NCBI GenBank assembly: GCA_015657395.1
Contig: JADLKI010000003.1
Location: 7,890 to 20,518 of the forward strand
Source: Spirochaetales bacterium
Lineage (GTDB): Bacteria > Spirochaetota > Spirochaetia > Treponematales > Rectinemataceae
Direction of reading: 5' to 3'
DNA length: 12,629 nucleotides
Positions 1 through 11,288 of this stretch are shown in pieces (position 1 is the stretch's first letter; each line of letters begins with the position of its first letter). The translations under genes and the position numbers were made by a program. Under the pieces are notes generated by a model. That model ran no database searches, was not told the DNA's origin, and saw only the letters and a list, made by a program, of their open reading frames with translations.

Positions 1-1117
1 GAAGCAAGGACAAGAAGCCGCCCGCCAGCGTGCCCACCACGCAGATCATTGATCGCGAGGGCTCGCTCTTCTTCTCTGGCGGCACCGCCGTGTCGATCAC
101 CTCGACGAAGACCTGATCCGTGGCATTCTGCAGGCGCAAATTCTCGAGGCTCGTCAGGAGCCCGCCGTATATCTTTGTCGCCAGTTCGAGCTCCGCCTGC
201 AGATTCGCGTATTCCATAAGGGCCTTGGGCGTCTCGCTTATGGATGGACCGACGCCGCCGCCCGTGCGCTCGAAGTTGTCGATCTGCTTCTGTATGGCCG
301 CAAGCTGGGCCTGGGCCTGGGTGAGCTTCGGGTTGTCGGCCGAGAGCGCGTTCTCCAGGCTGGAAATCTGAATCTCGAGGGTGATCTTCTGCTGGATGAG
401 CGAGCGGTACAGGTCGAGTCCCTGCTGGCTCTGGGTCGCCGGCGCCACGAGCCTATTCTTCCTCTGGTAATCCTCCATCTTGCTCTGAAGCTCGCGCACC
501 TTCTTTTCCTGGTCCGCAACCTGCTGCTCCAGCACCACGATGCTCTTGCCGCTCGAAGTGAGCACGCGGTTCGCAAGGTCCTGCTGCAGCAGGTCTATCG
601 CCGTATTGGCTATCCGGGCCGAGAGCTCCGCGCTCTTTGTCTTCGCCGACACCTTGATGAGCGACGTCTTCGCATCTATCGAGACGGAAAAGACGTCCTT
701 CTGGAATATCTCCACAGCGGCCGAAAGAGGACTTACATCTTTGAGCTTCTCCGGCTTTTTGATGAGCTGTGGGATCAGATCGAGTTCGTTGATGACCTTG
801 ACCGCCAGCTCCCGGCTGTTGAGGATCGCCTGGATCTTGACCGAAGGGTCCGAGGAATTCGTGCCGGGGAGGCTCACGCCCGCCATCGCGGCAAGACCCG
901 CATACTGGGAGAGCAGCGAAGAGGAGGAGCTCGAAATCGGCAGGACCGTGCTCGTCGCGGTGTACCTGTTTGGCAGTCTGAGCGCATAGACCACCGAAAG
1001 CACCGCGGCCAGCACCGTGATGATGATGATGAGCCACTTCTGCCGCCAGACTGTCGCGGCCAAGTCGATCAGCGATACCGATTCCGTCACAGCAGTATTT
1101 TGTTCAGCCACAGTCAT
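1..1117 (-). CDS. Wzz/GNVR-type polysaccharide chain-length determinant or co-polymerase, C-terminus cut by window edge
   Basis: Inner-membrane protein of the Wzz/PCP family, which controls polymer length or assembly during polysaccharide synthesis. The reverse strand reads openly for 372 codons to the left edge. It shows a short cytoplasmic N-terminus, a first membrane segment at about residues 29-46 (WLIIIITVLAAVLSVVYAL), and a periplasmic Wzz region with a Ser run and the SLLSQYAGLAAMAG segment. A long coiled-coil-forming stretch around LEQQVADQEKKVRELQ follows, then LLTSLENLRLQNATD, and finally the Pro-containing VIDTAVPPEKKSEPSRS motif leading into the second membrane segment, where the sequence ends. 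Whether a tyrosine-kinase domain follows cannot be seen. It lies 9 bp after the SLBB gene fragment, so co-transcription is likely. Start: GAGGAG (1118-1123) abuts the ATG at 1117, whereas the GTG at 1111-1109 is 6 nt away and better spaced. The true start may therefore be two codons downstream. Confidence 0.88.
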   Translation of the reverse strand, partial: MTVAEQNTAVTESVSLIDLAATVWRQKWLIIIITVLAAVLSVVYALRLPNRYTATSTVLPISSSSSSLLSQYAGLAAMAGVSLPGTNSSDPSVKIQAILNSRELAVKVINELDLIPQLIKKPEKLKDVSPLSAAVEIFQKDVFSVSIDAKTSLIKVSAKTKSAELSARIANTAIDLLQQDLANRVLTSSGKSIVVLEQQVADQEKKVRELQSKMEDYQRKNRLVAPATQSQQGLDLYRSLIQQKITLEIQISSLENALSADNPKLTQAQAQLAAIQKQIDNFERTGGGVGPSISETPKALMEYANLQAELELATKIYGGLLTSLENLRLQNATDQVFVEVIDTAVPPEKKSEPSRSMICVVGTLAGGFLSLL

Positions 1118-1126: not shown

Positions 1127-1663
1127 TTACAGGCCCAGGAGTGTCTTTGCAGTCAGCGCAGTTGTCAGGATGGTGCCGACAATCTCAAAGCCATCGCTCA
1201 GGTAAGCCCAGGTCATAGACAATTTGGACGATTTGGTGGGCACGTAGACCGTGTCGCCGGGCTCAAGCCTGTAGTTCAGGATATTCGGCCTGAAGAAAAG
1301 GAAGCCCTTGCCCTCGGTGCTGTCGAGCTTGCCTGAGACGCGGATGATGTATGCATGCGCCAAATCGGCCTCGTCCAAGATCCAGCCGGACTCGGCGATA
1401 GCCTGGCGTACGGTTAAGCCTTCCTTGTACAGCACCACATTCTGGCTCGACACTTCGCCGGATACCAGCACATAGGTCGGCATTTTGGGCACGTAGACGA
1501 GGTCGTCGCGCTCGAGCCTGATATCGGAAGAGGAGCCTGCCAGCGCCTCGACTGAGTCGGGGATATCGAGCGCGATTCGCCCAAAGCCTTCCTTGTAAAG
1601 CTGTTTCAGATTGCCGAGCTTAGCCTTCTGGATCGCGAGATCAACATGCATGTTCGCAATCAC
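1127..1663 (-). CDS. C-terminal SLBB fragment of the giant polysaccharide export protein, detached by a frameshift
   Basis: A 178-codon ORF that opens with a GTG overlapping the TGA of the upstream giant ORF (GTGA). It has no signal peptide and no convincing Shine-Dalgarno. Its N-terminus (DLAIQKAKLGNLKQLYKEGFGRIALDI) looks like the second half of the helical hairpin that normally precedes the last SLBB domain in Wza-like proteins. The first half (SAQQAQVDRLIAQYEAA) ends the upstream ORF. One SLBB domain follows (DIRLERDDLVYVPK, VLVSGEV, LTVRQAIAESGW, RLEPGDTVYVPTK), then a hydrophobic tail (WAYLSDGFEIVGTILTTALTAKTLLGL) that could be a C-terminal amphipathic or membrane helix like that of Wza. 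The same frame reads sensibly upstream of the GTG (GAALPTISSSSSSSVSGFAV), so the start is probably artificial. It is best read as the tail of the preceding gene. Separate translation by coupling at GTGA cannot be excluded. Confidence 0.8.
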   Translation of the reverse strand: MIANMHVDLAIQKAKLGNLKQLYKEGFGRIALDIPDSVEALAGSSSDIRLERDDLVYVPKMPTYVLVSGEVSSQNVVLYKEGLTVRQAIAESGWILDEADLAHAYIIRVSGKLDSTEGKGFLFFRPNILNYRLEPGDTVYVPTKSSKLSMTWAYLSDGFEIVGTILTTALTAKTLLGL

Positions 1664-4600
1664 GGCGAAGCCTGATACAGAAGAGGACGAAGAGCTCGAT
1701 ATGGTGGGCAGTGCAGCCCCGCGGACGTCGCCGCCTCGTACTGTGCGATGAGCCTGTCGACCTGGGCCTGCTGCGCGGACGCGACCGATTTCCGGATCAG
1801 GACAAGCCCCTTCGGATAAGCTCTCTGATCGTAGCCGCCCACTGCCGCAAGAGCGTCGGAGAGCCGCATCCCTTCGGTAAAGGCGAGAGTCTGGGGATGC
1901 ACGACTTCACCCCGGACCACGATCGCCGGCAGATGTTCGTCGGGCAGAAGCGCCTTGATCGTAATGGCGTCTCCCGGCGAAAGCAAAATTTTGGTGGTGG
2001 GCTGCCGTTTCAGGTAATCCTCGAGATACACGACAGTCGTCTCGCCTGAGGTCTTCTTGATTTCAGCCTTTAGTTCCATCAGGTCCTGCAAAAGTGTCAC
2101 GGATCGGAGGACCGACGACAGTTCGATCTGGTCATAATACGGTATGACCTTCGGATCGGCCACCTCGCCCGCGATGCTGATGGGCTTCTGGGAATATTTG
2201 GGATAGAAAATGACGGTATCGCGCGGCTGGAGTTCGACATCTGCCTGGGCCGAGACTACCTGACCTGGCGCAAAATTGATGACTTCACTCTTAACGCTGT
2301 AGCGGTAGACCTCGGCATAACTCGTCTCGGTATCGATGAGGATGTCGCTCTTCTGGATGATATCGGAGAGCTTCATGCCGCTGTACCAGGCATAACGTCC
2401 GGGATAGCGAATCAGTCCCTTGAGCAGCACAGTATCGGGATATTTCGAGAAATCGTGATTCTCTCCTGTGTCGCCCGCCGTGACGAAGCGGATGATGTCT
2501 CTCGGGTATATCCGTATGTCCTGATACCCTTTGAGCACTGCGAGGGGACTGAAGGTGAGGTAGTCGATTCTGTCGCTCCTCTGCCACCGCTCGATTTCGC
2601 CATAGAAAATGTCGGTGGTCGAGAGCAGCTGCTCGGGCGTCAGTATCTCCGACAGCATTTTCGGAGCGCTGAAGGAGTAGAGACCCGGAAAATTCGCGGC
2701 ACCCTGAATGGCGATCGCGTTGGCAAACTTGTCAAAGTCGATTTTCTCGGGAAGGTATTTCACAGGTACAAAGTGAATGGAATCCATTGCCCGCAGCGGG
2801 ATGTCGTAGGTTTTCCCAAGGACTTCGCGCGGCGAGAAGGTGAGGTATTCCCAGCTTCCGTCGGCCTTGCGGCGTGTCATCTCGGCATAGTCTAGGTTGG
2901 TGTCCTGCAATATCTGATCAGACGTTACGACTGAAGAGAGCATCAGATTGGGCGTGCGCGCATAGGGACCTTCGTACCGTATACTGCCTGAAGTATAGAC
3001 AACTTCGAGATAGAGACCGAGGTCTGTCTCTATGCCTCCGGTACCGGCAGCAGGTGCAGGCGCGGCTGTGCCATTGGCTGCGACTGGGGCGGCCTGGGCG
3101 GTACCTGCCGGTCTGGAGACTGTGCCGCCTCCATTGCCAGGGGCCGTCGTTATCTGGACTTCCGCCGCTCCCTGGACGGTAGAGGCAATCTTCGGTGCAA
3201 GAGTGCTGTACAGTCGTATCCTGTCACGGGCCTTCAGCGTCGTGTCATACTCCCCTCGCCCCACCTCCCGCGGCGCAAACGTCACATACTCGTTCTTCCC
3301 TCCACCCAACGGCCTCACTATCTCCGCATAGACCTGGTTCGTCTCCAATAACGGCTTCGCCAGCTTCAGAAGCGCCGACAGACTCATCCCCTCCGCCCAC
3401 GCATACGAACCCCCAAATCCCACAGGCCCTTCCACCGTCACTGCCTGCCCAAATCGCTCCGCATCAGATGCTGGCGCCACATACCCCACCTTCACCAGCC
3501 GGATCACATCCCTTGGGCCTAACTCAATATCATACCCCCCACTCAGCACTTCACCAGGACGGAACGTCAGATACTCATTCTTCCCATCACTCCTCAGCCG
3601 CGTAATCTCCCCATAGTTCAGATTCGTGTCTAGCAGCATCTGATCCGCCGTCAGCACCGAAGAAAGCTTCATCCCGGGCCGCAGCGCGTACACTTCAGGC
3701 CGCGCCACGTTCCCCGTCAGCTGTACAAGATCGCTGAATTTCTCAAGGTTCGGCTGTTCTCCTGCTCCCCCAAATGCCGTCTTCGCCACAAATCGAATCG
3801 CATCCTTCGCCTTCAGCGCAAGGTCATACTTCCCTTCCAGCACGTTTTTCGGCGCAAACGTATGATATTCCGGCGTCCCGTCTGCCTTCAGCCGTGTCAA
3901 CTCCGCATACTCAAGATTCGTCTCCTCCAGTATCTGGTCTGTCGTCACCACCGAGGACAGCTTCAAGCTCGGCGTCCGCGCATAAGGCCCCTGGTACCGG
4001 ATCGTCCCACTCACCGTCACAACCTCAAGAAACAGCCCTAAATCGGGAGTGATCGTCGCCGCTGATCCAAGGACTGGCGCTGTTGCCGGTGCCTGACTCG
4101 CTGCGGGCACCTCCACCGGCACAGTCTCTTGGGTACCAGGGACTACCCCTGGCCCACCACCCTGAGAAGTCGTCCCTGGGGACACTGTCGCTCCACCCGC
4201 CACAGCCGGCGCCTGTACACTCCCTCCCTCAGAGACCTCCGTCCCGGCTTCCACCCCTTGCTTCACCGTCGTCGTTTTCGCGGTCGCAGTGCTGTACAGT
4301 CGTATCCTGTCACGGACCTTCAGCGCCGTGTCATAGTCCCCTCTCTCCACCTCCCGCGGCGCAAACGTCACATACTCGCTCTTCCCTCCACCCAACGGCC
4401 TCACTATCTCCGCATAGACCTGGTTCGTCTCCAATAACGGCTTCGCCAGACTCAACAGATCCTTTAGCCCCATTCCCTCTTTCCACGCATACGAGCCCCC
4501 AAATTCCACCGGCCCTTCCACCGTCACCGCCTGCCCAAATCGCTCCGCCTCCACCGCTGGCGCCACATACCCCACCTTCACCAGACTGATCACATCTCTC

Positions 4601-7600
4601 GGCCCTAAGTCGAGGTCGAAGCTCCCCGCCAGCACCTCCCCGGGCCGGAAGGTCAGGTATTCATTCTTTCCGTCCGCCTTCAGCCGCGTAATCTCACCAT
4701 AGTTCAGATTCGTGTCCAGCAGCATCTGATCCGCCGTCAGCACCGAAGAAAGCCTCAGTCCCGGTGTCAGCGCATAGACATCAGGCCGCGCCACGTTCCC
4801 TTTCAGCTGTACTATCGCTGAATACTTGTTGAGCTCAGGTGCCGATCCTGCAGCGCCAAACGCCGTCTTCGCCACAAAGCGTATTGAATCTTTCGCCTGT
4901 AAGGGGAGATCGTCTGTACCTCCAAGTACGTCCTTGGGCGAGAATGTCCGGTATTCTGCCTTACCGTCAGCGTTCAACCTTGTCAACTCCGCGTAGTCCA
5001 GATTTGTGGTATCGAGGATCTGCTCGGGGATTAGTACCGACGAGAGCATGAGTCCCGGCGTCCGCGCATAAGGGCCCTGGTAGCGAATCTCTCCCACGAC
5101 AGAGACATATTCCTTTACATCCCTAAGATGCGGATTGTTCACGTCGATTGTTTCAGCGCCACTGGCAGACACAGCGGTCTCTGTAGCCTCCGTATACAGT
5201 CGGACGATATCTTTGGCCTTCAGCGCCATATCGAACGCGCCACTCGCCACTTCCCGCGGCGCAAACGTCAGGTATTCGCTCCGGCCATCTTTTCCAATCC
5301 GCACCACTTCCGCGTAGAACTGGTTCGTCTCGAGCTTCGGTTTCGCCAGTTTCAGAAGCGCCGACAGGCTCACACCCTCTTTCCACGCGTACATCCCCCC
5401 AAACTGCACAGGCCCTTTCACTTCCACCGCGTCCCCAAAGCGGTCGAAATCCGGCTTCTCCGGCGCATACCCCACCTTCACGAAGTTCACCACGTCTCGC
5501 GGCTCCAACGCAAGGTCCCAGGCCCCGCTCAGCACCTCCGAAGGCCGGAACGTCAGGTATTCGTTCTTACCGTCGGGGCGTTGCCGCGTCAGCTCCCCGT
5601 AATTCAGATTCGTGTCCAGCAGCATCTGATCTTTCGTCACTATCGACGACAGCTTCAATCCCGGCGTCAGCGCATAGGGACCCGTATATCTGACGGCACC
5701 ACTGACCGTCACCACGTCGTTGAAGAGATCCTTCTCTGTGTCCGGTGGGCCATACGACACGGCTGGCGTCGTCGGCACAGCTGTCTGCGCAAGCTTGGAC
5801 GCTGTTCCAGAAGCTGCCGGTTGAGTAGTGGTAGCGACAGGAATGGTTGCCGGGGTGGGCATACGGGTCGCGAGTGGCGCTGACTGAGTATTTCCAGCTT
5901 GGTCATTCGCAACCGCCCCCGAGGCGATACCCGTGGGCTGCGTATTCGCGCTTGCCGGTGCTGTTGTGGTCGTCGCCGGTACGGCGCCCGTCGCCTGCGA
6001 AGCTGCCGGCGCATTGGGAACCGTCGCACCCTGCGCCGCAGGGCTCGGTCCCGTCGCTGCACTGGGCACGGCAACACTTGGTGCCGCATTCGCAGTCCCT
6101 GCACCCGCACTCGCCACTGTCACACTGCCCGATGCCTCTGTCGTTCCCGTCGCCGCCTGTAAAGGCGCCTGCACGGGAACCGATGCCTTCTGCGCACCGG
6201 AAACCGCCGCACTCTGCACAGTCGCACTTGCCGGCGCTCCCGTAGGCGCCGTAACTTGCGCCGCGGTGCTCGGTGCCGCCACTGTACTGGTCAGGGCAGC
6301 GCCAGATACTCCTCCCACCGGCATGTTCGTATACAGCCGTACAATATCCTTCGCCTTCAGCGCCATGTCATACGCGCCACTCGTCACTTCCCGCGGAGAA
6401 AAGGTCAGGTATTCACTCCTCCCGTTCTCCCCCGCCCTCACGATCTCCGCGTAGAACTGGTTCGTCTCGAGCTTCGGCTTCGCCAGTTTCAGAAGCGCCG
6501 ACAGGCTCATACCCTCCCGCCACGCGTACATTCCCCAAAACTGCACAGGACCTTTCACTTCCACCGCGTCCCCAAAGCGGTCGAAGTCCGGCTTCTCCGG
6601 TGCGTACCCCACCTTCACGAAGTTCACCGCATCCCGGGACGCCAGCTCGAAGTCCCAGACCCCGCTCAGCACTTCAGAGGGCCGGAACGTCACATACTCG
6701 TTCTTCCCGTCGGGCTGCAGCCGCGTGATCTCCGCATAATTGAGGTTCGTATCCAGGAGCATCTGATCTTTCGTCACTATCGACGACAGCTTCATCCCCT
6801 CAGTCAGCGCATACACGTCCGGCCGCGCCACGTTCCCCGTCACGGTCACCGCATTGGGAAACTTATCGAAATCGTGGTCGGTCGCCTGCCCGTCCCGCGC
6901 GACGAAACGAATGGTGTCGTACCTCGCGAGCGCCAGATCGGTCTTGCCCGCCAGCACGCTGTCCGGCGAGAAGGTATGGTATTCAGGTTTTCCGCCGGAG
7001 CCTCTCCGCGTAAGCTCGGCGTAGAAGTGATTGGCATCGAGGAGGAGGGCGTTGTTCGCGAGAAGATCGGAGAGCCGGGCCCCTTCCTTATACAGATAGA
7101 ATCCCGGATATTTGACCGGTCCGCTTATCACCACCGTATCGGCAAAGCGGTCGAAATCCGGATCGATCGTCGTGTCATCGTAGCGGTAGAGCACTACCTT
7201 GTCGAACTCGGAGAGCGGCACGTCGCCAGCCGAGGCAAGCACATCCCTCGGAGAGAAGGCGAAGGACTTGTCGCGTCCCGACTGATCGATGCGGTACAGG
7301 CGGCCATAGAAGAGGTTCGTCTCGGGCAGCGGCTGCGCCTTCAGCAGGAGGCTCCTGAGAGTCTTGAAGGTGCCGACATCGTAGCGCCCGGGATACTTCA
7401 CCGTGCCGGAAATCTGGGCCTGGCCCAGGAGAAGGTCGCTCACCCTGCCGAAATAGACGAAGTCACCGTCGCTGACAGTCAGACCCGCAAAGGCCTTGTC
7501 CGCGATATCGCCCGTGCGCAGCACCTTGCCCGCGGCCTCGAAGCGGAGCAGGCTCACGTTCCCCGAACGCGCCGAAGGCAGCGCATTCCCCGCCAGCGCG

Positions 7601-8607
7601 AGAACCTGGCCGATACTCGCCTCGCTCTTTATTTCGTAGATGCCGGGCCGCCTGAGTTCGCCCGAGAGCGCCACGACGGGGCCGATTCCCGGAATGAATA
7701 TCGAATCGCCCTCTCGTACGCGCAGGTCGATGGACTTGCCCTCGAGAAGGCTCGCGTAGAAATCGAGATCGACGCGCTCCGCAGCGCCGCCCTTACCCTG
7801 CCTCGTGAGCACGACCGAACGCAGAGAACCTGTCTTGAGAACGCCGCCCGCGCGCGAGAGCACCGTGAACACCGTATCCGCGCCATTCGCCAGCACCGTC
7901 CCCGGATTGCCCGCGTAGCCCGAGACGAACACCGGAAACTGCCGCAGCGTCGAGAGCGTCAGGTTCATCTCGAGCTTCTTGTAGCGCCGGTCGAGCATGC
8001 TCTTCAGCGTCTCCTTCACCGTCCCGAGATTCTGGCCCCACACCGACACCTGTCCCACGGGAGGCAGGAAAATCGCCCCATTTCTGTCCACAGTGAGTAC
8101 ATAGGAAGACGACAGCTCCCTGATGTCCACCGGGTCGCCCCAGAGGTAGAGCACGAGGCCGTCGCCCGGCCCGAGCGTATAGTCGTCGCCAATCGCCGCG
8201 AGCGATGGCGCAGTAGGATTTCCGAAGAGCGAATAGCCGAACTGCGTGAGATTCTGTGCCGACGTTCCCAGGCTCGAGGCCATGGTCGCAAACATCTGCT
8301 CTATGGAGGAAGGCTGTATAGTCTGGGCCGGAGCTTGCACCGCAGCGGCGGTCTGGCCGCTTGATGTTTGGGCGCCTGAAGCCTGTCCAGAGGGCGCCGT
8401 CGTGAGCTGGTTCACCGTCGGCTGCTGGGGCGCGGTAGTCGGAGCAGTGCCGGTGAAAGAGCCGCTCAGATTCTGTGTCCCGCCCTGCATGGCGCTCAGT
8501 GCCTGCTCAATCGCCGTCTGGTCCATCGTCTGGGCACCCGCAGCCGCAAGCAGCACGAGCGAGAACATCGCCGCCGATATCAATGCAATTATTTTCTTTG
8601 TCATCAT
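1660..8607 (-). CDS. Giant Wza/OPX-type polysaccharide export protein with tandem SLBB modules
   Basis: Likely outer-membrane or periplasmic export conduit for a polysaccharide. Residues 1-25 are a Sec signal peptide (KK, hydrophobic core, AGA|Q); there is no lipobox, unlike classical Wza. Residues 26-140 are low-complexity. Residues 141-222 form the Poly_export domain (DDYTLGPGDGLVLYLWGDP, DRNGAIFLPPVGQV). SLBB domains lie at about 225-310 and 311-395. Then come 16 modules of about 95 residues, starting near 397, 490, 586, 681, 966, 1059, 1167, 1265, 1360, 1528, 1627, 1722, 1869, 1964, 2058 and 2143. Their pattern is roughly VxGxVxxPGxY, xxGxxLSSLL, TNxxYAExxR, EYxTFxPxxV, DxIRxV. Ala/Thr/Pro-rich linkers lie at about 761-965, 1441-1529 and 1803-1869. 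Another SLBB starts near 2228 (IVVRGEVVHPQTLAF). The last ~18 residues are out-of-frame product of a frameshift near 1717-1720; repaired, the protein would be about 2,493 residues. GGAG at 8611-8614 is 3 nt from the first ATG and 6 nt from the second (8604), which is the likelier start. Confidence 0.9.
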   Translation of the reverse strand: MMTKKIIALISAAMFSLVLLAAAGAQTMDQTAIEQALSAMQGGTQNLSGSFTGTAPTTAPQQPTVNQLTTAPSGQASGAQTSSGQTAAAVQAPAQTIQPSSIEQMFATMASSLGTSAQNLTQFGYSLFGNPTAPSLAAIGDDYTLGPGDGLVLYLWGDPVDIRELSSSYVLTVDRNGAIFLPPVGQVSVWGQNLGTVKETLKSMLDRRYKKLEMNLTLSTLRQFPVFVSGYAGNPGTVLANGADTVFTVLSRAGGVLKTGSLRSVVLTRQGKGGAAERVDLDFYASLLEGKSIDLRVREGDSIFIPGIGPVVALSGELRRPGIYEIKSEASIGQVLALAGNALPSARSGNVSLLRFEAAGKVLRTGDIADKAFAGLTVSDGDFVYFGRVSDLLLGQAQISGTVKYPGRYDVGTFKTLRSLLLKAQPLPETNLFYGRLYRIDQSGRDKSFAFSPRDVLASAGDVPLSEFDKVVLYRYDDTTIDPDFDRFADTVVISGPVKYPGFYLYKEGARLSDLLANNALLLDANHFYAELTRRGSGGKPEYHTFSPDSVLAGKTDLALARYDTIRFVARDGQATDHDFDKFPNAVTVTGNVARPDVYALTEGMKLSSIVTKDQMLLDTNLNYAEITRLQPDGKNEYVTFRPSEVLSGVWDFELASRDAVNFVKVGYAPEKPDFDRFGDAVEVKGPVQFWGMYAWREGMSLSALLKLAKPKLETNQFYAEIVRAGENGRSEYLTFSPREVTSGAYDMALKAKDIVRLYTNMPVGGVSGAALTSTVAAPSTAAQVTAPTGAPASATVQSAAVSGAQKASVPVQAPLQAATGTTEASGSVTVASAGAGTANAAPSVAVPSAATGPSPAAQGATVPNAPAASQATGAVPATTTTAPASANTQPTGIASGAVANDQAGNTQSAPLATRMPTPATIPVATTTQPAASGTASKLAQTAVPTTPAVSYGPPDTEKDLFNDVVTVSGAVRYTGPYALTPGLKLSSIVTKDQMLLDTNLNYGELTRQRPDGKNEYLTFRPSEVLSGAWDLALEPRDVVNFVKVGYAPEKPDFDRFGDAVEVKGPVQFGGMYAWKEGVSLSALLKLAKPKLETNQFYAEVVRIGKDGRSEYLTFAPREVASGAFDMALKAKDIVRLYTEATETAVSASGAETIDVNNPHLRDVKEYVSVVGEIRYQGPYARTPGLMLSSVLIPEQILDTTNLDYAELTRLNADGKAEYRTFSPKDVLGGTDDLPLQAKDSIRFVAKTAFGAAGSAPELNKYSAIVQLKGNVARPDVYALTPGLRLSSVLTADQMLLDTNLNYGEITRLKADGKNEYLTFRPGEVLAGSFDLDLGPRDVISLVKVGYVAPAVEAERFGQAVTVEGPVEFGGSYAWKEGMGLKDLLSLAKPLLETNQVYAEIVRPLGGGKSEYVTFAPREVERGDYDTALKVRDRIRLYSTATAKTTTVKQGVEAGTEVSEGGSVQAPAVAGGATVSPGTTSQGGGPGVVPGTQETVPVEVPAASQAPATAPVLGSAATITPDLGLFLEVVTVSGTIRYQGPYARTPSLKLSSVVTTDQILEETNLEYAELTRLKADGTPEYHTFAPKNVLEGKYDLALKAKDAIRFVAKTAFGGAGEQPNLEKFSDLVQLTGNVARPEVYALRPGMKLSSVLTADQMLLDTNLNYGEITRLRSDGKNEYLTFRPGEVLSGGYDIELGPRDVIRLVKVGYVAPASDAERFGQAVTVEGPVGFGGSYAWAEGMSLSALLKLAKPLLETNQVYAEIVRPLGGGKNEYVTFAPREVGRGEYDTTLKARDRIRLYSTLAPKIASTVQGAAEVQITTAPGNGGGTVSRPAGTAQAAPVAANGTAAPAPAAGTGGIETDLGLYLEVVYTSGSIRYEGPYARTPNLMLSSVVTSDQILQDTNLDYAEMTRRKADGSWEYLTFSPREVLGKTYDIPLRAMDSIHFVPVKYLPEKIDFDKFANAIAIQGAANFPGLYSFSAPKMLSEILTPEQLLSTTDIFYGEIERWQRSDRIDYLTFSPLAVLKGYQDIRIYPRDIIRFVTAGDTGENHDFSKYPDTVLLKGLIRYPGRYAWYSGMKLSDIIQKSDILIDTETSYAEVYRYSVKSEVINFAPGQVVSAQADVELQPRDTVIFYPKYSQKPISIAGEVADPKVIPYYDQIELSSVLRSVTLLQDLMELKAEIKKTSGETTVVYLEDYLKRQPTTKILLSPGDAITIKALLPDEHLPAIVVRGEVVHPQTLAFTEGMRLSDALAAVGGYDQRAYPKGLVLIRKSVASAQQAQVDRLIAQYEAATSAGLHCPPYRALRPLLYQASP
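1717..1720 (-). other. Probable single-base frameshift site (G4 run on the coding strand) in the giant SLBB gene
   Basis: Around this run the reading frame that makes sense changes. Upstream of it the giant ORF encodes a helix ending QYEAATSAG. Downstream it yields atypical residues (LHCPPYRALRPLL) before stopping. The frame that would follow if one G were added here reads GAALPTISSSS and runs straight into the 178-codon ORF. With that one base the whole coding length 8607-1127 becomes 7482 nt, an exact multiple of three. The cause could be a sequencing error in a homopolymer, a real mutation, phase variation, or -1 ribosomal slippage. Confidence 0.72.
3001..3201 (-). repeat. Ala/Gly/Thr-rich linker 3
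   Basis: About 67 codons of low-complexity sequence (Ala, Gly, Thr, Pro, Val) between C module 12 and A module 13, ending ETDLGLYLEV like linker 2. After it, module 13 is A-like (GSIRYEGPYARTPN), while modules 14-16 are progressively divergent and more ordinary. Confidence 0.75.
3202..4020 (-). repeat. SLBB triad 4 (modules 10-11-12, A-B-C), 819 bp
   Basis: Same length and order as triad 3: A (VTVSGTIRYQGPYARTPS), B (GNVARPEVYALRPG, TADQMLLDTNLNYGE) and C (GPVGFGGSYAWAEG, LKLAKPLLETNQVYAE). Many long identical DNA stretches link it to triad 3, which points to recent duplication or gene conversion. Confidence 0.85.
4021..4287 (-). repeat. Gly/Thr/Pro/Val-rich linker 2
   Basis: About 89 codons between triads 3 and 4. 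It is rich in Thr, Gly, Val, Pro and Ala (VQAPAVAGGATVSPGTTSQG is typical) and ends ITPDLGLFLEV. The DLGLxLEV ending recurs at the end of linker 3, so linkers and triads appear to have been duplicated together. Confidence 0.8.
4288..5106 (-). repeat. SLBB triad 3 (modules 7-8-9, A-B-C), 819 bp
   Basis: Full A-B-C triad: A (VSVVGEIRYQGPYARTPG), B (GNVARPDVYALTPG, TADQMLLDTNLNYGE) and C (GPVEFGGSYAWKEG, LSLAKPLLETNQVYAE). It is collinear without gaps with triad 4, which lies 1086 bp further along the coding direction. The two share, for example, an identical 69-nt stretch (4381-4449 here, 3295-3363 there). Confidence 0.85.
5191..5712 (-). repeat. SLBB unit 2, shortened: hybrid A/B module 5 plus C module 6
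   Basis: Only 174 codons, 99 fewer than the full triads. Module 5 begins like an A type (VTVSGAVRYTGPYA) and continues like a B type (LKLSSIVTKDQMLLDTNLNY, KNEYLTFRPSEVLSG). It matches module 3 closely in DNA from about 5655 leftward. Module 6 is a C type almost identical to module 4 (GPVQFGGMYAWKEG, LKLAKPKLETNQFYAE). A short 28-codon linker (5107-5190) separates it from triad 3. Confidence 0.8.
5713..6327 (-). repeat. Ala/Thr/Pro/Val-rich low-complexity linker 1
   Basis: About 205 codons of low-complexity sequence between the C module of triad 1 and the next array unit. It is dominated by Ala, Thr, Val, Pro, Ser, Gly and Gln, with almost no charged residues until PPDTEKDLFND at its end. 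It is probably disordered or extended. It sits where the other linkers sit (after a C module, before an A-type module) but is two to three times as long. Confidence 0.8.
6328..7134 (-). repeat. SLBB triad 1 (modules 2-3-4, A'-B-C)
   Basis: Three consecutive SLBB-like modules inside the giant gene, 269 codons. The first (VVISGPVKYPGFYLYKEG) is a diverged A type that shares the YHTFxPxxVLxGKxDLAL half with module 10. The second is a B type (GNVARPDVYAL, KDQMLLDTNLNYAE). The third is a C type (GPVQFWGMYAWREG, LKLAKPKLETNQFYAE, LKAKDIVRLYT). B and C are near-identical in DNA to the corresponding parts of triad 2. An Ala/Thr/Pro linker follows. Confidence 0.8.
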
Positions 8608-8685: not shown

Positions 8686-9099
8686 TCAATGATTCCGGGA
8701 AGGGTCCAAAAGTTTTAGTTTTTTGAAATATTTCCGATAATACCCGCGGTCGCGGGCCAGAAGTTGATCGGCGTGTACCATGGCATGGGCCGCAATAAGA
8801 AAATCAGGCAACACCCTCTTCGATTCACCTTTATTTTTTAAGTAGAAAGAGTATATCGAGCCTGCGAGAAAAGCGCTTTCTCTTGTCGAGGGGAAAAATT
8901 CAGCTCCCATGTCATTCAAAAATTCTGACAAAACAGCATCGGATGATAGAGCTGGCCGTAATTCTGCAATCACAGATTCGCAGACTATAATCCTCCCTGT
9001 CTCGCGGGCCTTTGCCAGGGCTGCTTCCGAACAGGAAGCAAAATGCGAATCATCGACGAGGATATCGAGGAGCACAGAAGTGTCAACAGCCGTTGTCAT
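8686..9099 (-). CDS. vapC: PIN-domain ribonuclease toxin (VapC-like)
   Basis: 137 residues, normal length for VapC toxins, which are Mg2+-dependent RNases held inactive by a partner antitoxin. The acidic residues expected of a PIN active site are visible: D6 in TTAVDTSVLLDIL, E41 or E46 in VCESVIAEL, D99 in VLPDFLIAAHA, and D117 in LLARDRGYY. All four positions look intact, so the protein is probably active. The start codon overlaps the antitoxin stop (ATGA, 9096-9099), which implies translational coupling. The two genes are more A+T-rich than the polysaccharide genes on either side, consistent with horizontal acquisition. The RNA target cannot be told from the sequence. Confidence 0.85.
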   Translation of the reverse strand: MTTAVDTSVLLDILVDDSHFASCSEAALAKARETGRIIVCESVIAELRPALSSDAVLSEFLNDMGAEFFPSTRESAFLAGSIYSFYLKNKGESKRVLPDFLIAAHAMVHADQLLARDRGYYRKYFKKLKLLDPSRNH

Positions 9100-9444: not shown

Positions 9445-10083
9445 TTATCCTTTCAGTTTTTCCGCGGCCGAATTCAGCAATATCTGGGAGAATCTGATGA
9501 GCGGCACCGAGCGAGGCATCCCGGCACGGCTCCTGACCTCTTCGCCAGCATCGTCATTTGCGCAGATAACGACAAGATTCTCATATTCCATACGTCCCGC
9601 ATTGATCACCCGCAGACAGGGCTCTGCCTTTTTATAGAATTGCAGGCTATGCCGCAGACATGCGTAATCAAACAAAAAATCGAGCTCTTCCGGCCCCAGG
9701 AACAGTACCGCGTCATAGCCCCGCCGCGCCACTTTTTCAATGAAAATATCTATTTTCTTCCGATATAGTGAGGCATTTCGCATCGCGCGCGCAAAGAAAT
9801 CCATTGTCCGCACGGCGATCTGCTGTACTCCCGACGGTGTCAGCGCGTACTTGATGGCGCTCCCCCTGACATGCAGCAGCTTCACCCAGCCCCGGTCCAT
9901 AAAGCGCTTGAGCAGCACATTGGTAAGACCGAGGGACAGCCCGGAGGTACGCGCCAGCGCCCTCTGCGAATTCAGCGTAGAGGTATCCCCTTCCTCCATC
10001 GCGGTATAGAGAGAATCGAGGAGTTGTAATTCGGGATTATTTGAATTCATGGTAGGCTCAATAATTTTGACAGGATTGAACAT
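9445..10083 (-). CDS. Winged-helix DNA-binding protein with unknown C-terminal domain
   Basis: About 212 residues. Residues 18-85 (counted from the ATG at 10083) look like a MarR-type winged helix: LQLLDSLYTAMEEGD, a helix-turn-helix around STLNSQRALARTSGLSLGLTNVLLKRFMDRGWV, and a wing LLHVRGSAIKYALTPSGVQQI. The rest (YRKKIDIFIEKVARRGYDAVLFLGPEELDFLFDYAC, INAGRMEYENLVVICANDD) alternates hydrophobic strands and helices as an alpha/beta domain I do not recognise; it could be a ligand-sensing domain. The ATG at 10083 overlaps the ATPase stop (TGATG). A TTG one codon earlier or ATG at 10050 are alternative starts; none has a strong Shine-Dalgarno. It is probably translated by coupling from the ATPase message. 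Possible targets are its own operon palindrome at 11302-11331 or the polysaccharide genes; this is inference. Confidence 0.65.
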   Translation of the reverse strand: MFNPVKIIEPTMNSNNPELQLLDSLYTAMEEGDTSTLNSQRALARTSGLSLGLTNVLLKRFMDRGWVKLLHVRGSAIKYALTPSGVQQIAVRTMDFFARAMRNASLYRKKIDIFIEKVARRGYDAVLFLGPEELDFLFDYACLRHSLQFYKKAEPCLRVINAGRMEYENLVVICANDDAGEEVRSRAGMPRSVPLIRFSQILLNSAAEKLKG

Positions 10084-11288
10084 CAAACAATGGGGTCGGA
10101 ACCCTTCCTGACGTGGATTTTTTTGCCCTTGTAGATGATTTCGTCACAGGTATCTGCGGTTATGATATACCCTTCGGCCAGGTTGAAAAATGAGAGCGCC
10201 GCCATCAGACCATGGATTTCACGCGCTTCATTGTCGGTGGTCAGCTGGCTGCATACCTGGATGCAGAGAGGCGGCCCGCTATGGGGATGTACGACAAAGT
10301 CACATTCACTCTCTTTATCGGAGAAATAATAGATATCTTTCGTTTTCCGCCTGAGTTCTATGAACACGACGTTCTCGAGCAAGGCGCCTTCATTCTTTGT
10401 GAATGCCGCAGAACCGGTGGTGATAAGCCCCGGATCCACCACATAGAGTTTCTTTGGGGCGAGCGACTGAGCCTTTGCCGACCACGCGAATCGTGGCACC
10501 AAGTCGATCAGGTACGCGGCCTCAAAATAAGAGATGTAATCGAGGATCGTTTGGGGAGATTTAACGCCTACGATTCCCGTCAAGTTGCTTGGCGAAACAA
10601 GGTTTGCCGCATTGGAAAGAATATAGGTGAAGAGCCGCTTCAATGATCCTATGTCACGAATTCCGTGGCGCACTGCGATATCGCGATAGAGGATATCTGT
10701 CTGCAGCTGCACAAGAATGTCGCGGTTTCCGGTTTTTAAATACTCCGGGAAGCCGCCTGATTCCAGATATACCTTGAGCGAGTCGATCCCTCTCGCAAGA
10801 TTTCTGAACGCCAGAAACTCGCTATAGGAAAAAGGATAGAGCTCTTTGGTGATATGCCTGCCCGTGAGCTTTGTGCCAAGCTCACCGCTCAAGAGCGACG
10901 CGTTCGAGCCGGTCGCGATAACCTGGAAGTGCTCATCCAGTTTTTGTCTGATATAGAGCTCCCAGTTTGCAGCTGACTGAATTTCATCGAAAAACAGCAG
11001 CCTGGAGCCAGACTCCGCGATCACCGTATCGAGGAGAGTGAAATCGCTTGTCTCAAAGCCGAGAAGCCGCAGGTCGTCAAAATTGAAATAGAAATACGGC
11101 CTCGCCAGCTTTCTCGTGAACTGATGCAGAAGCGTACTTTTGCCGCACCTGCGGATGCCAGAGACGATAAGCGCGTGACTTGTGATATCAGGCAAGCCGG
11201 CAAGGACCTCCCTCTCGAGCCCCGTATCGAAGGTCTCGACCGCCTCTTTCTGGCTTGCCGCAATATCGCGCAGTCCCGACAGTTTCAT
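10083..11288 (-). CDS. AAA ATPase with C-terminal DUF4143 domain (AAA_14 family)
   Basis: 401 residues, typical length for this widespread but poorly understood prokaryotic ATPase family. Walker A is GIRRCGKST (44-52), Walker B is RLLFFDEIQ (D101, E102), a sensor-like ATGSN lies at 125-129, and LTGRH with a possible arginine finger follows at 141-145. The C-terminal DUF4143 region resembles the PD-(D/E)XK nuclease fold: FIEL (E311), ESECDFVV (D330), and CIQVC (344-346), where the usual lysine of the E-x-K motif is absent, as is common in this family. Such proteins are often linked with mobile or accessory DNA and sometimes described as toxin-like, but no firm function is known. It overlaps the winged-helix gene downstream. 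No Shine-Dalgarno is seen before the ATG at 11288. A TATACT at 11301-11296 would start transcription right at the ATG. Confidence 0.85.
   Translation of the reverse strand: MKLSGLRDIAASQKEAVETFDTGLEREVLAGLPDITSHALIVSGIRRCGKSTLLHQFTRKLARPYFYFNFDDLRLLGFETSDFTLLDTVIAESGSRLLFFDEIQSAANWELYIRQKLDEHFQVIATGSNASLLSGELGTKLTGRHITKELYPFSYSEFLAFRNLARGIDSLKVYLESGGFPEYLKTGNRDILVQLQTDILYRDIAVRHGIRDIGSLKRLFTYILSNAANLVSPSNLTGIVGVKSPQTILDYISYFEAAYLIDLVPRFAWSAKAQSLAPKKLYVVDPGLITTGSAAFTKNEGALLENVVFIELRRKTKDIYYFSDKESECDFVVHPHSGPPLCIQVCSQLTTDNEAREIHGLMAALSFFNLAEGYIITADTCDEIIYKGKKIHVRKGSDPIV

Follow-up and report, generated by a model that had tools for sequence, protein, structure and literature searches.

A giant OPX-type export protein with a block-variable SLBB array in a flagellin-less spirochaete

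Most of what is known about outer-membrane polysaccharide export (OPX) translocons comes from Wza, which carries two SLBB domains. In this work we analysed a stretch of 12,629 nucleotides from a Spirochaetales bacterium, hereafter called the window, and focused on a giant OPX protein encoded on its reverse strand between positions 1127 and 8607. The protein is a length-variable OPX variant that extends the known kind, with 20 SLBB modules here and up to 29 in its relatives, and its copy number shifts by blocks, often of three. The host is a flagellin-less spirochaete, the closest named relatives of which are Rectinema. We lean towards the reading that the giant is the OPX component of an exopolysaccharide cluster, probably of the Wzx/Wzy type, and that its periplasmic, block-variable array guides the polymer and is not a ruler of the periplasm. 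Its head would dock on a Wzz-type co-polymerase at the inner membrane, a candidate C-terminal helix would fix the tail to the outer membrane, with the array spanning the periplasm between the two. Rigid SLBB blocks joined by flexible linkers may then ensheathe or guide the polymer, while the length of the array would drift by recombination without measuring the periplasm.

The giant OPX frame and the predicted fold of its modules

The long frame (positions 1660-8607, reverse strand, 2315 residues) has a signal-like start, followed by a Poly_export domain and an SLBB array. Both domains were matched in the Pfam scan that the sequence-only reading of this DNA had proposed, PF02563 (Poly_export) at residues 140-218 with an E-value of 2.7e-12 and 47.1 bits (cut-off 28), and PF10531 (SLBB) with an E-value of 2.3e-43, seven stretches being individually significant. 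One more SLBB (PF10531, 33.2 bits) was found by Pfam in a 178-residue frame at 1127-1663 on the same strand. A module profile built from the giant protein's own modules and then iterated on its relatives is more sensitive than that of Pfam. Of the 20 SLBB that it identified, 19 lie in the long frame and one in the short, and it gave no match on 200 residue shuffles of the protein; before iteration, the first profile of the protein's own modules had found 15 middle copies. The sequence-only reading had claimed about 20 modules, which agrees with this count, but it had divided them into 2 + 16 + 2, whereas we count two in the head, 15 in the middle and three in the tail. The features are as follows.

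1660..8607, reverse: giant OPX frame with signal-like N-terminus, Poly_export and 19 SLBB (Pfam and iterated profile)
8533..8607, reverse: signal-peptide-like N-terminus, read from the sequence; lipobox cysteine absent by pattern search
7954..8190, reverse: Poly_export, residues 140-218 (PF02563; head model against Wza)
7438..7932, reverse: head SLBB 1 and 2, residues 226-308 and 312-390
6322..7416, reverse: middle block 1, four SLBB, residues 398-762 (profiles; model pLDDT 87.1)
5713..6321, reverse: low-complexity linker, 203 residues
5185..5712, reverse: middle block 2, two SLBB, residues 966-1141 (iterated profile)
4285..5106, reverse: middle block 3, three SLBB, residues 1168-1441 (iterated profile; DNA repeats)
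4021..4284, reverse: low-complexity linker, 88 residues
3199..4020, reverse: middle block 4, three SLBB, residues 1530-1803 (iterated profile; DNA repeats shared with block 3)
3001..3198, reverse: low-complexity linker, 66 residues
2191..3000, reverse: middle block 5, three SLBB, residues 1870-2139 (iterated profile)
1729..2181, reverse: two tail SLBB, residues 2143-2220 and 2229-2293 (iterated profile)
1127..1663, reverse: second frame, 178 residues, with the last SLBB (1229-1471) and the C-terminus (PF10531)
1130..1213, reverse: C-terminal hydrophobic segment, candidate outer-membrane span (similar C-termini of relatives; helix in the model of relative P0047)
2..1117, reverse: Wzz/GNVR co-polymerase, 398 residues in full, running off the window (PF02706 and PF13807)

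Positions 1127 to 8607 had been taken as one export protein. The OPX-type identity holds, given the Poly_export domain, a head with a Wza-like fold and the 20 SLBB, but the assembly has two frames here instead of a single open one. Homology is lost from the long frame near position 1720 and picked up again in the short frame, which places the frameshift directly behind the two tail SLBB, in the same region as a helical hairpin in the P0047 model. No frame break occurs in this region of the relatives P0001 (2527 residues) and P0002 (2467 residues), which are identical to the long frame at 97% over 79% and at 94% over 99%, respectively, and the short frame matches the end of P0001 at 96.6% identity. 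Since these near-identical relatives are unbroken, the frameshift reflects either a recent mutation or an error in sequencing. The tails of P0031, P0034 and P0037 are abrupt or out of frame, indicating gene breaks in several assemblies. It might be argued from these breaks and from the frameshift that the array stems from misassembly or neutral expansion, the window copy being broken. We regard this as highly improbable, as 36 relatives exist, 32 of them with both ends and some on contigs of 1.3-3.3 Mb, many positions are conserved along the chain, and the nearest relatives are intact.

In models of a relative, middle modules superposed on the first SLBB of Wza with an rmsd of 1.3-1.6 Å. This domain was the closest match of the single-module models, in line with the earlier claim that the modules fold as SLBB, and the head model has the Wza fold. 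The sequence-only reading had suggested that each module may add a ring. In that case 20 octameric, Wza-like SLBB rings would be stacked into a conduit of about 50-60 nm, across or beyond a very wide envelope, an explanation that we consider unlikely. It is in keeping with the match of single modules to the first SLBB of Wza, which forms part of the Wza ring, and with the alignment of two consecutive modules to both Wza SLBB over 157 residues; at an rmsd of 6.8 Å, however, the orientation of the domains differs from that in Wza. One middle module also aligned by fold to GfcC (rmsd 2.3 Å). The middle modules could alternatively be glycan-binding beads that hold the polymer or peptidoglycan and form no pore, export being left to head and tail. 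This we find equally unlikely: by fold, the modules match the first SLBB of Wza at least as well, and the array must lie between head and tail, which are opposite ends of the chain. In the P0047 model, tail residues 917-980, in the region of the second last SLBB, form two long helices. C-termini similar to that of the window's protein recur in relatives.

Relatives and variation of the array

About 5.8 billion proteins were searched, and the best 7988 candidates by shared words were scored. This yielded at least 36 large relatives of 1281-3551 residues, three of which carry organism names (Rectinema sp., a Spirochaetales bacterium and a Spirochaetae bacterium). Head and tail were both present in 32 of the 36, and in these the SLBB counts were 11 (three proteins), 12 (two), 14 (one), 15 (one), 18 (three), 20 (three), 21 (14), 22 (two), 23 (one), 26 (one) and 29 (one). 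Many described homologues of the same architecture had been named in advance as a finding that would refute the claim. This holds in part: such homologues do stand in the databases, but none was found described in print. A search with the head as query, in which 7997 candidates were scored, returned at least 95 proteins of 389-1167 residues, including P0037 of a Rectinema sp. (87% identical) and ordinary OPX proteins. Five of the latter, among them P0062 of Geobacter, were counted and contain six to seven SLBB each.

Genomes were searched as well. Scanning GTDB genomes with two conserved peptides gave 16 loci encoding relatives. One of them (L022), in a metagenome-assembled genome labelled Treponema sp., encodes a member of the giant family that is cut by the contig end; the remaining 15 each have one to three modules by the first profile, except L037, which has none. 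Among 392 Spirochaetota genomes, 63 had a Poly_export match, with frames of at least 1000 residues in G000 (2322), G063 (1580) and G347 (1091). The G063 frame, of 1566 residues, was rejected as a giant, having no SLBB in its first 940 residues and a Poly_export score below the cut-off. A second, divergent giant occurs in the host's bacterial family, which is probably Rectinemataceae to judge by how close relatives are named. It has 22 SLBB in 2128 residues (G397) and 13 in 1598 residues (G411), and its identity to parts of the head query is 27-35%. These divergent genes lie at L073:2905-9276 and L074:1135-5685, both on the reverse strand, and show a strong lag-3 periodicity.

The arrays vary in length between conserved ends. 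P0003, P0023 and P0030 have heads and tails that are 100% identical, with 26, 15 and 12 SLBB; P0026 and P0033, a second set with identical ends, have 14 and 11. P0020 and P0028, 98% identical, contain 29 and 22 SLBB, and their contigs measure 3.26 and 3.04 Mb. The relation of module identity to spacing was examined in 17 chosen proteins, and lag 3 was highest in 12 of them (one tied), including the divergent G397, G411 and G409. In the window itself, blocks 3 and 4 share stretches of 238-300 bases at 82-89% DNA identity. P0008 is a reciprocal mosaic. It has its head in common with P0011, at 99% identity, and its last six modules with P0015, at 92-99%, the identity elsewhere being 56-80% (last eight modules against P0011, first ten against P0015). 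More generally, P0006, P0008, P0011 and P0015 have near-identical heads and divergent tails, the reverse applying to P0008 and P0015. This mosaic pattern points to recombination within the array. A family with 11 to 29 modules, in which the copy number differs between genes with identical ends, provides a natural length series for the role of SLBB domains, be it in lining a pore, in setting a length or in holding glycan.

Over the 32 proteins with both ends, and excluding the helix-pair boundary, 444 of 552 module boundaries were tight (at most 26 residues) and 108 were long (37-203 residues). The long linkers are composed of 24% Ala, 11% Thr, 11% Gly and 10% Pro, and the runs between them mostly comprise three, five or six modules. 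The tight majority would suit stacked rings, but linkers of 37-203 residues interrupt the array, and 12 to 26 copies occur between identical ends.

Flagellin, envelope width and gene context

Flagellin was not found in the window's genome, so that there is no flagellar reason for a wide envelope to house a stack of rings. In the host's bacterial family, 11 of 30 genomes had a flagellin match. Frames with at least two PF10531 domains occurred in 11 of the 19 flagellin-less genomes (G000, G362, G394, G396, G397, G403, G406, G409, G410, G411 and G414), as against none of the 11 flagellin-bearing ones (Fisher p 0.0016, a value that ignores kinship, follows a cut chosen post hoc and includes genomes 69-99% complete, several of them incomplete). 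The frames of these carriers, most of which are cut by contig ends, have 5-22 SLBB by the iterated profile; the flagellin-bearing matches to the head query, G399 and G413, have four each. Periplasmic flagella were therefore rejected, for this family, as the cause of the long exporter, such multi-SLBB frames being confined to the flagellin-less among its 30 genomes. Since the carriers in this family have no detected flagellin, OPX length becomes separable from flagellar widening of the envelope.

If each SLBB ring adds 25-30 Å, 20 stacked rings would measure about 50-60 nm and be above published periplasm widths. In 34 Gram-negative species besides M. xanthus (327 Å), these are 210-442 Å for all but one strain (PMC9603273). 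The E. coli periplasm is about 330 Å wide, and the channel formed by Wza and Wzc measures 360 Å, of which some 250 Å are periplasmic (PMC12881504). Across 92 pairs, OPX length was reported not to correlate with periplasm thickness (PMC9603273). Rectinema cohabitans is a rod-shaped spirochaete (PMC6052044). The earlier idea of a conduit through a wide periplasm is weakened by this missing correlation, by the flagellin-less carriers, by the long linkers and by the copy number that varies between identical ends. Projection of the array from the cell, also considered before, becomes less likely if the conserved hydrophobic helix at the C-terminus, a candidate span, crosses the outer membrane. A bolder reading is that spirochaetes without their former periplasmic flagella evolved a length-variable column of SLBB rings, blocks of which are gained and lost as near-identical strains recombine, and which forms a conduit of more than 50 nm that remodels the envelope or reaches beyond the ordinary periplasm; this seems to us decidedly improbable.

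The neighbourhood argues for a role in export. The co-polymerase gene is full length at L019 and is the sole PF02706 match of the genome, which is 91.6% complete and has one Poly_export and one Wzz match, adjacent in the window. The same contig encodes a Wzx-type flippase, an initiating sugar transferase, a GT11 enzyme, group 1 glycosyltransferases and a nucleotide-sugar dehydratase, and the window also holds a Polysacc_synt_2 gene. Loci L076, L077 and L078 likewise have OPX followed by Wzz, and so, judging by the next open reading frame, does L083, probably. Given the head fold, the co-polymerase neighbour and no other OPX detected, export is likely, and the giant is probably the working exporter of the genome. 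Open reading frames L021:4035-4769 and L021:4808-5383 had no Pfam match. Also on the reverse strand of the window are a PIN-domain protein (8686-9099), similar to VapC toxins and immediately upstream of the giant gene, a winged-helix regulator (9445-10086) weakly resembling the MarR EPS family (48.1 bits, cut-off 88), and an AAA_14/DUF4143 ATPase (10083-11288) with the sugar genes on one side and the giant gene on the other. Another winged-helix gene, L074:469-1044, lies beside a divergent giant.

Several points weigh against the export component with a guiding, block-variable array that we favour. The gene in the window is itself frameshifted, and no Wzy was identified. The Wza_C domain (PF18412, class 1) was not matched in the long or the short frame up to an E-value of 1, in a profile-only test the filters of which remove most matches above E about 0.1, where PMC9603273 also used HHpred. 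The C-terminal helix (residues 1107-1134 of the P0047 model) has a low confidence, with a pLDDT of about 40. An amphipathic C-terminal helix as in Wza was not supported, the hydrophobic moment in the window's protein being reached by 624 of 2000 shuffles; among 12 proteins, at most 51 of 2000 shuffles reached that of five (P0036, P0051, P0058, P0062 and G397), all other family members or outgroups. The lag-3 value of the window is modest (reached by 57 of 2000 shuffles), and those of P0001, P0003 and P0004 were reached by 84, 94 and 262. A strict triplet rule was rejected, since P0036 peaks at lag 2 and P0020 and P0028 at lag 7; G403 peaks at lags 2 and 5, and in G362 lag 6 is just above lag 3. 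Where contigs are short, differences in copy number may stem from collapse during assembly, and short-read collapse could lie behind those among P0003, P0023 and P0030 and between P0026 and P0033. Finally, 14 of 32 relatives share a count of 21 SLBB, which suggests some preferred length and is the strongest point for a stack of rings.

Comparison with known OPX proteins

Printed SLBB counts for OPX proteins range from 1-8 in 2007 (PMC1796856) to 1-14 in 2022 (PMC9603273). The sequence-only reading knew of no exporter with as many modules as the giant, and we likewise found none with more than 14 in the literature covered by our searches, although the supplements of PMC9603273 may list some. 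Nor did we find there a description of the copy-number variation or of a link with absent flagellin. As profile counts, the printed numbers may miss copies; in the long frame, Pfam recovered seven stretches of 19.

The giant has both Poly_export and SLBB, which characterize OPX proteins, as well as adjoining co-polymerase and sugar genes. As to its class, the GfcC domain (PF06251, class 2) scored 12.8 bits (E 0.12), below the cut-off of 20. Class 3 OPX proteins consist only of Poly_export and one to seven SLBB (PMC9603273). In the giant, profiles matched no other domain; Pfam gives seven SLBB stretches in the long frame, as against 20 SLBB by the iterated profile, and a C-terminal helix assigned to no domain is modelled in P0047.

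Wza of E. coli (PDB 2j58, 9r60) is a lipoprotein with two SLBB and a Wza_C helix barrel (PMC9603273, in part), whereas the giant has 20 SLBB and linkers and lacks a lipobox and a Wza_C match. Class 1 proteins in the census of PMC9603273 are likewise multi-SLBB, with a reported maximum of 14 by profile; the giant differs by its 20 modules (relatives to 29), counted with a more sensitive profile, and by the absence of Wza_C by profile. Non-lipidated KpsD (class 2), with several SLBB-like domains, resembles the giant; the prediction for KpsD is a barrel of eight subunits whose C-terminus crosses the outer membrane (PMC11041684). GfcC (PDB 3p42), which is soluble, periplasmic and built of two beta-grasp domains (PMC8592465), fold-aligns with one giant module, its profile match being sub-threshold. 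WzaB of M. xanthus (class 3, PDB 9n9a), encoded beside a beta-barrel protein (PMC9603273), is a chain of 160 residues, compared with the 20 SLBB of the giant.
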